Shown here: positions 1,757 through 4,561 of the stretch, one piece after another
Layout: each line of letters opens with the position of its first letter
Position numbering within the stretch: position 1 is the stretch's first letter
Source: a virus
Reading direction: 5' to 3' (one strand)
DNA length: 42,628 nt
Virus record (IMG/VR): IMGVR_UViG_3300021142_000064
Span: 1 to 42,628 of that record
Position numbers and translations under genes: made by a program
The notes under the pieces: model-generated
Told to the model about the DNA's origin: nothing
The model's database searches: none
Seen by the model: the letters and a program-made list of their open reading frames with translations, nothing else

Positions 1757-2710
1757 TTAGTACAATTCTTCTTCCGTAAGGAACCTAGATGTTTTTAATA
1801 ACTTGGTAATACCTTTCCTACCCAATTTTTCATAGATTAAACTGGGGTCGTACCCATCAGGGGGTATACATATCTTAACCCTATTCTTTAAGTTATAGAA
1901 ATTAAGGCCTTTGTATAAGTTAATAGCGTCTTCTTTAGCATCCGAATCTAATAATACGACAACAAACCCCATTGCATTCTCTTGTAGGGCATCTAATAGC
2001 TTTGGTGATATGTATTTTCCAAGTAAAGGTATTGAATTTGGTGTAACTATGTGGTCAAAAGCACCTTCTACTAGATAAATTGTCGCATCGAAGTTTATCT
2101 TATTCTCATTAAAGATGATTTCTTGCTTCTCAGCTTCTGGATTTATATACTTTAGCTTATTTTTTTGTTTTGAATACCATCTTGCGATGAAATAATTAAG
2201 CCTTTCATCAGAATCATACGATGGAATTACGATTCTGTTGTAGTGAGCACCAGTAGTTGTATATCCTATACCAAATTCTTTTATTATATCTTCACCAATA
2301 CCTCTATTTCTTAAGTATGCCATAGCTGAATAATAACCAAAATCACTTGGTGAAGACTCCGATAGCTTTTTATACCCCTCTGGAAGGGTTACAATAATGT
2401 CTTTGTGTTCTTTTTCTAGGATTTGGTCTGCATCTGGCTTGATTAACAGGTAGTCTCTGATGATTCTATCATTACCATAACGCTTTAATAGTCGCATTAC
2501 AGGCCCATGCATATTATTTGTTTCCGCACAGGCCCAGCATTTGAATAGTCCTCGATTATAGTTAATCTCAAGATTACCCTTACCATCACCATCATACAAT
2601 CCTTTATCAGCTGAACATGCAGGGCAGTCCCAAGAGCATTGACCAGTTTCTTCATTATGTTTTCTACACGGACCTAAAAATGATTCAAGTATGTTTATCA
2701 ATAAACTCAT
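1757..2710 (-). CDS. DNA primase (DnaG/T4 gp61 type)
   Basis: A 317-residue primase that would make RNA primers with the gp41/DnaB-like helicase at 31492-32892. The N-terminus has a zinc-binding domain (C29-x2-C32 in DCPAC and C58-x2-C61 in KCWAC, plus C15 and C25). A Toprim catalytic core follows, with the acidic motif YLVEGAFD and the DxD motif in VVLLDSDAK. There is no C-terminal helicase-interaction domain of bacterial DnaG size; the length resembles T4 gp61. Its promoter lies at 2736-2766. A diverged second copy of its first 25 codons is found at 3756-3830, on the far side of a homing endonuclease cassette. Confidence 0.92.
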   Translation of the reverse strand: MSLLINILESFLGPCRKHNEETGQCSWDCPACSADKGLYDGDGKGNLEINYNRGLFKCWACAETNNMHGPVMRLLKRYGNDRIIRDYLLIKPDADQILEKEHKDIIVTLPEGYKKLSESSPSDFGYYSAMAYLRNRGIGEDIIKEFGIGYTTTGAHYNRIVIPSYDSDERLNYFIARWYSKQKNKLKYINPEAEKQEIIFNENKINFDATIYLVEGAFDHIVTPNSIPLLGKYISPKLLDALQENAMGFVVVLLDSDAKEDAINLYKGLNFYNLKNRVKICIPPDGYDPSLIYEKLGRKGITKLLKTSRFLTEEELY

Positions 2711-2735
2711 AAAAAATCTAATTAATTTTAAAATA

Positions 2736-2766
2736 CAAAAATACTATTTTTTTCTTGTTTTTCCAA
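2736..2766 (-). promoter_or_regulatory. Host-type promoter of the primase gene
   Basis: - strand TTG (2766-2764, within TTTGG), 20-base spacer, TATTTTTG (2743-2736). A leader of about 25 bases follows, ending in a T-run before ATG at 2710. It diverges from the late-type motif of the rightward homing cassette. Confidence 0.75.
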
Positions 2767-2816
2767 ATATTTTAATAAAGTTCTGAAAAAAATCAGACTT
2801 TTTGTTCTTTAGTAGG

Positions 2817-2829
2817 TATTTATAATAAA
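2817..2829 (+). promoter_or_regulatory. Late-type motif before the homing cassette
   Basis: Reads TATTTATAATAAA, nine bases before the ATG at 2839. It matches the ATATTTAT plus A/T-rich motif found before structural genes. It suggests that the cassette is read with late genes. This is the only + strand instance placed before a gene. Confidence 0.45.
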
Positions 2830-2838
2830 CAAAAAATT

Positions 2839-2997
2839 ATGGGAAGACCTAAGTTAAAACAAGAAGATAAAAAAGGTAAATTAGGTATTAGTTTGTCTAA
2901 AGAAATTATAAAGAAAATAAATTCAATCACAGATAACAAATCAACATTTATTGAACATATGATAAATGAATATTTTAAAACTAATAAACATGTTTAA
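2839..2997 (+). CDS. Small ribbon-helix-helix DNA-binding protein
   Basis: A 52-residue basic protein with the pattern of Arc/CopG-type ribbon-helix-helix regulators. It has an N-terminal basic GRPK segment, a short strand (KLGISLS, residues 14-20), helix 1 (KEIIKKINSI, 21-30), a turn with NKS, and helix 2 (TFIEHMINEYF, 36-46). Such proteins dimerise and bind operators. Its last eight bases (2990-2997) overlap the likely start of the GIY-YIG endonuclease, so the two are probably co-translated. It may repress or modulate its own cassette; that is inference. Its AT-rich composition and + orientation set it apart from the phage genes around it. Confidence 0.75.
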   Translation: MGRPKLKQEDKKGKLGISLSKEIIKKINSITDNKSTFIEHMINEYFKTNKHV

Positions 2998-3754
2998 TTA
3001 TTGTGGCGTATATAAAATTACTAATATCAAAAACAATAAATGTTATATTGGTAGCTCGATAAATATAGTAAGAAGATGGGGTGAACATAAACGTCAGTTA
3101 AAAAATAATAAACACGCCAATACCCATTTACAAAAATCTTGGAATAAACATGGTGAAAATTCATTTTTATTTGAAACTATTGAATTTGTTAAAGATGAAA
3201 AAAATTTAATAAATCGTGAGCAATATTATCTGGATGAGGTTAAAAAATATGATTCAAAATTATTATACAATATTTGCCCAATGGCATATAGTGCGTTAGG
3301 ATTTAAACATTCTAATGAAACAAAAAATAAAATGTCTGAATCACATAAAGGATTAGTTCATAAAAAAGACACTATTATTAAAATGATAAAAAATAAAAAT
3401 AAACAATCTGAACATACAAAAAATAAATTATCTGAAATAAACAAAGGTAGAATATCACAAAATAAACAACCAATTTATCAAATAGATTTAGATAATAATA
3501 TAATTAAAAAATGGGATTGTGTAACAGATGCCGCTAAAACGCTTAATTTGTCCCCGTCACTAATATGTAGTGTTTGTAGAGGTAAACGAAAAAGTACTGG
3601 TGGATTTAAATGGAAATATTTAAATGAAATAAAACAAATCCCTATTAATTCCGAAGAAATTAAAAATAAATATTCAACTGGTTTATATTCAACAAGAGAA
3701 TTATCTAAAATTTATAATATAAGTAAAACAAGGATTTGGAACATAGTAAAATAA
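2990..3754 (+). CDS. GIY-YIG homing endonuclease
   Basis: A 254-residue free-standing homing endonuclease, counted from ATG at 2990, which overlaps the upstream gene's stop. An in-frame ATG at 2966 would add eight residues. The GIY-YIG nuclease domain is clear: GVY (6-8), YIG (19-21), catalytic R28 and E78 (REQYYLD). Behind it are two NUMOD3-like DNA-binding segments around HSNETKNKMSESHKG and HTKNKLSEINKG. A NUMOD1-like domain follows (IYQIDLDNNIIKKW ... GGFKWKYL), then a C-terminal helix-turn-helix (STRELSKIYNISKTRIW). It cuts a specific site to spread its own gene. The gene is visibly richer in A and T than its neighbours, reads against them, and ends within two bases of a primase remnant. 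Confidence 0.92.
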   Translation: MFNYCGVYKITNIKNNKCYIGSSINIVRRWGEHKRQLKNNKHANTHLQKSWNKHGENSFLFETIEFVKDEKNLINREQYYLDEVKKYDSKLLYNICPMAYSALGFKHSNETKNKMSESHKGLVHKKDTIIKMIKNKNKQSEHTKNKLSEINKGRISQNKQPIYQIDLDNNIIKKWDCVTDAAKTLNLSPSLICSVCRGKRKSTGGFKWKYLNEIKQIPINSEEIKNKYSTGLYSTRELSKIYNISKTRIWNIVK

Positions 3755-3830
3755 CTTGCCCTGTATCTTCATTAAGTTTTCTGTGGTCACCCAAGAAACT
3801 TTCAAGTACACTGACTAAAAGATTTACCAT
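3705..3830 (-). pseudogene. Truncated second copy of the primase 5' end
   Basis: From ATG at 3830 the - strand encodes 25 residues closely like the primase N-terminus. Both contain LESFLG, then RK, NE and TGQ at the same spacing; about 15 of 25 positions are identical. Homology stops at about 3756, next to the endonuclease stop codon at 3752-3754. The frame then runs antisense through the endonuclease 3' end for 16 unrelated codons to a stop at 3705. The zinc-finger cysteines and the Toprim core are absent, so it cannot be a primase. It keeps a good promoter. Most likely it is the original primase start, cut off when the homing cassette inserted. Confidence 0.82.
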
Positions 3831-3834
3831 TTGG

Positions 3835-3865
3835 CAAAAGTACTAAATTAAATTGAAATTTGCAA
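3835..3865 (-). promoter_or_regulatory. Intact promoter of the primase remnant
   Basis: - strand TTG (3865-3863), 20-base spacer, TACTTTTG (3842-3835), then CCAA and ATG. It has the same four-base gap to ATG as two other genes. It would now produce RNA antisense to the whole homing endonuclease gene. Confidence 0.78.
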
Positions 3866-3866
3866 G

Positions 3867-4514
3867 TTAGGATTTCCAACTTCCTGTTTTAAGCATCTGA
3901 CCTCTACCAGCACAATAGGCATCGCTCATATCGAAGTTTTCTTTTTTAAGCTTGTTGTGCTTATCAAACAACCAAGTAATTTGAGGTACCAAGTCACAAA
4001 CCTTTTCAAATATAACCATTTTTTTATCTACATCAAAAGGATAACCGCCAAATAAAACTGGTTCATTTTTGGCTATTTGTTTTTCTGGTAGAGGAGTTCC
4101 ATCTTTCTTGGTTGTTCTTGAAGCCATAAGTTCTGGGAAACCATACTTACGAGCATCATACGAAGATATAAACTCTGGGACAACACCAATGGTATCAAAT
4201 ACTGATTTTGAAATCATACCGTTAAATCGCAATAGCGTTGCTATGGTGTATACGTTATTTGACTGAAGAAGAGGTTCTTCGATGATTACTCTGTATATAC
4301 CGAAATCAGCATACTTGTTCAAGAATTCTGTCTGGAAGATTTCAACTTTTTTGAATAGTTCTTCCATCTTGTTTTCTGGTTTTGGTTTTACCTTCGGACT
4401 AACATGGTGTAACAATTTTAGTTCACCCATATCGCCTAGGTCTTCAAATAATGCTATTCCTATTGTGGAGGTTGATACGTCTAAAGCTAGTATATACTTT
4501 GGTTCTTTGCTCAT
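3867..4514 (-). CDS. RuvC-like Holliday junction resolvase
   Basis: A 215-residue protein from ATG at 4514; a TTG 18 bases upstream could extend it slightly but is less likely. It has the RNase H-fold pattern of RuvC: ILALDVSTSTIGIALF with the first catalytic Asp (D12), IIEEPLL with an acidic second motif, and a C-terminal NFDMSDAYC with two Asp. It would cut branched DNA formed during recombination-dependent replication, before packaging. T4 uses the unrelated endonuclease VII for this, so a RuvC-like enzyme is a functional replacement. It lies just before the interrupted primase and just after the tail genes. The fold is well supported; the exact substrate is inferred. Confidence 0.8.
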   Translation of the reverse strand: MSKEPKYILALDVSTSTIGIALFEDLGDMGELKLLHHVSPKVKPKPENKMEELFKKVEIFQTEFLNKYADFGIYRVIIEEPLLQSNNVYTIATLLRFNGMISKSVFDTIGVVPEFISSYDARKYGFPELMASRTTKKDGTPLPEKQIAKNEPVLFGGYPFDVDKKMVIFEKVCDLVPQITWLFDKHNKLKKENFDMSDAYCAGRGQMLKTGSWKS

Positions 4515-4561
4515 AAGTGTTTTTATAACCAATGTAAATTGTGTTAATGAAAGGTAAAGAC

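Follow-up and report, generated by a model that had tools for sequence, protein, structure and literature searches.

The window (the whole stretch of viral DNA analysed here, one virus record of 42,628 bases, IMGVR_UViG_3300021142_000064) contains a segment that is very probably a gene-end-replacing homing endonuclease element lodged in a DNA primase gene. The comparisons presented below point to a mobile unit (approximately 2627-3754) made up of a GIY-YIG endonuclease gene, a small ribbon-helix-helix-like (RHH-like) gene, a promoter and the first 25-28 codons of the primase. The features of the locus are as follows:

1757-2710, minus strand: intact primase gene, 317 amino acids without internal stops (PHROG 'DNA primase', E=2.6e-33)
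2710-2627, minus strand: primase codons 1-28, the cassette-borne part of the intact gene, set off by the identity step against the related locus L002
2736-2766, minus strand: cassette-borne promoter-like site of the intact primase, TTG-N20-TATTTTTG
2839-2997, plus strand: small RHH-like open reading frame, 52 amino acids (Pfam gives only DUF6364, below the cut-off)
2990-3754, plus strand: GIY-YIG homing endonuclease gene, 254 amino acids, antisense to the primase
3756-3830, minus strand: remnant, codons 1-25 of the resident primase, cut off by the end of the endonuclease gene (ATG at 3830)
3835-3865, minus strand: resident promoter-like site upstream of the remnant, TTG-N20-TACTTTTG
3867-4532, minus strand: RuvC-like resolvase gene (PHROG RuvC-like resolvase, 1.2e-5, and synteny)

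The RHH-like and GIY-YIG open reading frames overlap by 8 nucleotides, and the stop codon of the latter (3752-3754) is separated by exactly one spacer base (3755) from the position where the homology of the remnant ends (3756). A preliminary description of the window had placed a diverged 25-codon copy of the primase start beyond the RHH-like/GIY-YIG cassette, with homology ending no more than two bases from the endonuclease stop codon and before the zinc-finger cysteines, and these points were borne out. The remnant (MVNLLVSVLESFLGDHRKLNEDTGQ) and the start of the intact gene (MSLLINILESFLGPCRKHNEETGQ) are identical at approximately 16 of 25 amino acids (62% identity at the DNA level), their score of 77 was reached by none of 20,000 protein shuffles (maximum 37), the remnant is found by a profile of intact primase N-termini (E=5.9e-14), and its end adjoins, on the 5' side, the position of the first zinc-finger cysteine of the intact primase. 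The promoter that the same description assigned to each copy is present as a motif, TTG-N20-TAnnTTTG, upstream of both primase starts (2766-2736 and 3865-3835). Because this promoter form is known from Bacteroidota, the host of the window phage may belong to that group.

A scan of IMG/VR with the primase alone yielded 5 loci, and a scan with a primase alignment yielded 80. All contigs are metagenomic, but separate assemblies show the structures again (L048/L049; L022/L023/L097/L098). The RHH-like plus GIY-YIG cassette, antisense to the primase, is found in six lineages (the window, L002, L057, L006, L048/L049 and L022/L023), and in five of these the endonuclease stop codon is immediately followed by a remnant of the primase start. 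The sixth, L022, has no remnant, its resolvase stop codon nearly abutting that of the endonuclease (4010-4022 of that locus), an arrangement that a deletion or deeper resection may explain. The resolvase is directly upstream of a single uninterrupted primase in the cassette-free loci L003, L004 and L016-L021, and in most of the loci scanned the resolvase match ends approximately 40-110 bases before such a primase. A second primase start, sought with the primase N-terminus profile, was absent from every cassette-free locus; both starts without a cassette, an arrangement at odds with the reading given in the preliminary description, were thus not seen in these loci.

The cassette is present in one and absent from the other of two pairs of relatives that are otherwise approximately 99% identical (L002/L017 and L049/L055). 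L002, which has the cassette, and L017, which does not, are 99.0% identical along a 3,966-bp match whose final position coincides with the last remnant base (...GACACTGGACAA); past the cassette, the match resumes at TGCCCTGCGTG of primase codon 29 and extends for 5.9 kb at 99.1%. Within the primase, L002 and L017 are 64% identical in codons 1-25 versus 99.9% from codon 30 onward (Fisher p=4e-31); the corresponding values are 68% and 98.6% for L048/L049 versus L055 (p=3e-19), and 65% and 97.8% for L006 versus L053 (p=2e-5). The remnants are 100% identical to the cassette-free start in L002 (compared with L017 and L164) and L048 (compared with L055 and L058) and 96.6% identical in L006 (compared with L053), and the working starts most resemble the starts of other carriers (window and L002, approximately 87-88%; L006 and L048, 91%). 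At most approximately 8-13 bp of recipient sequence is missing between the end of a remnant and the point where identity resumes, and the 3' ends of the five remnants fall at several points within approximately 12 bp, clustered at codons 20-25. Alignment with cassette-free relatives, proposed in the preliminary description, therefore gave an uninterrupted primase after the resolvase, with remnants matching its start and primase bodies 97.8-99.9% identical, and these three comparisons of a carrier with a cassette-free relative support the earlier suggestion that the cassette entered the primase gene and that a foreign start restored it.

The primase query of IMG/VR returned no cassette-free partner closer to the window than 72% protein identity, and so, with no near-identical cassette-free genome found, the argument for the window itself is drawn from its relatives and from the steps in identity seen against L002; a DNA search of annotated phages returned short nuclease matches only. 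The identity profile of the window against cassette-free loci has no usable step because the primase bodies are only approximately 68% identical. Against L002, the mobile part is well conserved (endonuclease 88%, RHH-like gene 89%, promoter region 87%, primase codons 1-28 84.5%) and the sequence outside it less so (resolvase 79.5%, remnant 72%, primase after codon 28 68.9%). The well-conserved interval runs from the endonuclease stop codon to primase codon 28 and defines the mobile unit. The earlier suggestion can be refined accordingly: the new primase start did not come in on its own but belongs, together with its promoter, to the mobile unit.

It is improbable that the new start is a mere conversion tract, produced by ordinary co-conversion around an intergenic homing gene of the Seg type. 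Co-conversion of flanks is standard among phage homing endonucleases (PMC2988022), but in its ordinary intergenic form it leaves no duplicated gene end, whereas here the resident start is kept as a truncated duplicate, the unit has the same boundaries across lineages, and the tract stops approximately 12 bp or less from the junction (L002/L017 and L049/L055). Self-duplication of the primase start, with a homing gene settling later between the copies and both copies diverging, is very unlikely: the copies are indeed homologous, adjacent and in the same orientation, but a self-duplication in a genome 99% like its relative would yield two near-identical copies, and two starts occur in no cassette-free locus. 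For L002 and L048 this origin is refuted, since their remnants are 100% identical to a cassette-free start, whereas their working starts share only 65-69% identity with the remnant but 88-91% with the start of another carrier. There is just as little probability that the cassette was inserted into the intergenic region upstream of the primase and that the remnant is an unrelated or functional short peptide gene. The remnant of the window does keep a promoter-like site and a short open frame (MVNLL..., 40 amino acids before the first stop), but it is primase-like by profile (E=5.9e-14) and equals the resident primase start in relatives, and remnants always end within approximately 12 bp of the same primase codons, with none in L022. 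A group I intron was rejected, as Rfam gave no match in either the window or six relatives and the primase, with a start and a promoter-like site of its own, needs no splicing, and a split gene was rejected because the primase is one uninterrupted frame.

Beyond the unit boundaries, the alleles with and without the cassette, the foreign start, the resident remnant and the recurrence of the arrangement, which are visible in the alignments, the replacement of the primase start by a homing unit may be pictured as follows. In a cassette-free phage, the endonuclease would probably cut the primase gene near codons 22-28, before the zinc-finger cysteines, and repair of the break would copy the unit from a donor. 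On the 3' side, the primase body of the donor would pair with that of the recipient; on the 5' side, the recipient start, with its promoter and the resolvase, would be joined at the endonuclease stop codon to give the truncated remnant. The clustered ends of the remnants are what joining near such a putative double-strand break would leave. The primase is predicted to be expressed from the cassette promoter with a start that is divergent but conserved as protein, and with this new start and promoter, insertion into conserved coding sequence would do no harm even though neither an intron nor an intein is involved. The cut site is probably missing from the imported start, which would give the unit self-immunity, and the remnant may provide the left arm of homology when the unit homes again. 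As to how the first unit acquired its gene end, one possibility is a one-sided invasion from a homing gene placed upstream, followed by end joining past the stop codon of that gene.

The codon after Gly-Gln is a candidate for the immunity position. It is C, S, C, T, T or A in the six carriers and I, V or M in 39 of 45 cassette-free primases, a contrast (p=5e-5) in which the carriers, through shared descent, represent two or three cassette lineages and 6 of the cassette-free primases also have none of these three residues at the junction. In L049/L055 it is the last codon altered by the swap.

By its domain and catalytic residues, the window endonuclease belongs with the I-TevI-like GIY-YIG enzymes. 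It matches the Pfam GIY-YIG domain (PF01541, E=2.6e-12) and the structure of the I-TevI catalytic domain (1mk0, E=5.5e-16), and its I-TevI-like catalytic motif is intact: G(V/I)Y and YIG are conserved, and R29 and E77 invariant, among six endonuclease homologues. Its putative DNA-binding motifs include NUMOD3 (7.7e-9), an I-HmuI NUMOD-like match (1.6e-6) and a C-terminal helix-turn-helix, with HTH_psq found in the relatives in L057 and L006. Two sub-types of the endonuclease are apparent, one of which (L006, L048 and L022, approximately 52-55% identical to the window protein) is without the NUMOD1-like region; the other includes the proteins of L002 and L057, which are 84% and 76% identical to that of the window. 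The overall confidence of the endonuclease structure prediction is low. The RHH-like open reading frame is conserved across 8 loci and may encode a regulator or DNA-binding partner. Its AlphaFold model, also of low confidence, has an extended stretch followed by two helices and matched no fold in the PDB; at the sequence level there was no convincing match, DUF6364 being weak and below the cut-off.

The closest known precedent for this arrangement is the mobile ORFs of fungal mitochondria, which form gene hybrids in atp6 of Allomyces macrogynus and in atp6, atp9, cox2 and nad3 of Glomus (PMC3630166). There, as in the window, an endonuclease ORF enters a conserved gene and brings a foreign end in place of the native one, which persists as a remnant matching close relatives. 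Those mitochondrial elements swap the C-terminal end (PMC3630166), whereas the window element swaps the 5' end of a phage primase and supplies its own promoter-like site; further differences are the antisense GIY-YIG gene and RHH-like gene of the window, and the 3' ends and HNH nucleases of related loci. With the GIY-YIG enzymes I-TevI and Seg of T4 and its relatives, the window element shares the catalytic domain, NUMOD-type motifs, presence/absence polymorphism and local flank conversion, but I-TevI is encoded inside a group I intron and Seg between genes (PMC2988022), whereas the window element lies within coding sequence and re-supplies the gene start. MobE in nrdA of Aeh1 and MobA in the T4 topoisomerase gene, both HNH enzymes, are likewise free-standing homing genes inside important genes, but their targets are split into two polypeptides that reassemble (PMC2988022); the window primase, one uninterrupted frame of 317 amino acids giving a full-length polypeptide, falls outside this gene-splitting type. 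In a study of homing genes and genetic exchange between phages, nuclease genes mark recombination boundaries beside core genes, as in the window; term searches of its text showed neither duplicated gene ends nor a gene end replaced by an element (PMC10448857). No phage precedent for gene-end replacement was found in the open-access literature, a weak negative as many subscription papers lie outside that scope.

Other gene ends at these loci have been affected in a similar manner. Duplicated gene ends flank 13 of 27 homing-nuclease open reading frames versus 2 of 267 other open reading frames of the same loci, and one of the latter two is the ATPase of the L049 HNH cassette. Duplicated resolvase 3' ends flank GIY-YIG genes, which may lie on either strand (L030, L065, L073, L075 and L078), and an HNH gene (L036); duplicated resolvase 5' ends flank RHH-like/GIY-YIG or GIY-YIG genes (L036, L039 and L077), and duplicated primase 3' ends an HNH gene (L177). 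L049 (6764-8325) and L055 (6700-6771) provide a further pair of alleles with and without an insert: in L049, a cassette of an HNH gene and a Terminase_6N-like ATPase gene is present at the 3' end of a PD-(D/E)XK exonuclease gene, which has acquired a new 3' end upstream of the cassette, while its 20 native terminal codons persist downstream. In annotated phages, 14 GIY-YIG contexts (mostly crAss-like) showed no flank duplication, which is therefore not a general property of GIY-YIG homing genes; it looks characteristic of the present phage group or of some nuclease lineages. On balance, it is somewhat more likely than not that gene-end replacement is a general strategy by which phage homing nucleases of unrelated families (GIY-YIG and HNH) enter conserved coding sequences, each element bringing a cut-resistant copy, conserved as protein, of one end of its target gene, and the displaced native end acting as a homology arm in further homing.

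By bringing along a substitute for the gene end that it displaces, a selfish nuclease could in this way inhabit a conserved replication gene with no need for splicing. Gene-end replacement would account for truncated gene copies beside phage nuclease genes, which are otherwise annotated as pseudogenes or ignored, and for abrupt transitions in mosaicism where core genes begin or end; if true generally, it would offer homing nucleases a further option beside introns, inteins and sites between genes, and the ends of core phage genes would be reshuffled steadily. In the near-identical natural pairs the process can be read base by base; these pairs also narrow the predicted cut region and would allow a direct test of immunity.

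Several loci have further peculiarities. The ATPase gene of the L049 HNH cassette is an unusual partner in a homing cassette. L057 (2912-4992) has tandem cassettes, a resolvase-end GIY-YIG gene followed by the RHH-like/GIY-YIG cassette with its primase-start remnant, and L036 (2381-4947) is a mosaic with an RHH-like/GIY-YIG cassette at the 5' end of the resolvase gene, an HNH gene at the 3' end, and remnants of both ends. In another phage (L142, 2192-4484), a GIY-YIG gene lies between two genes with similar first 44 codons, a possible start swap. A thioredoxin-like gene is situated between the resolvase and primase genes of L072 (4643-4963) and L073 (1235-1567), and this spot evidently takes non-nuclease cargo as well. 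The exonuclease gene of L004 (5996-7783) has an apparent intein (595 amino acids versus approximately 265), so the same core genes apparently host several kinds of homing elements.
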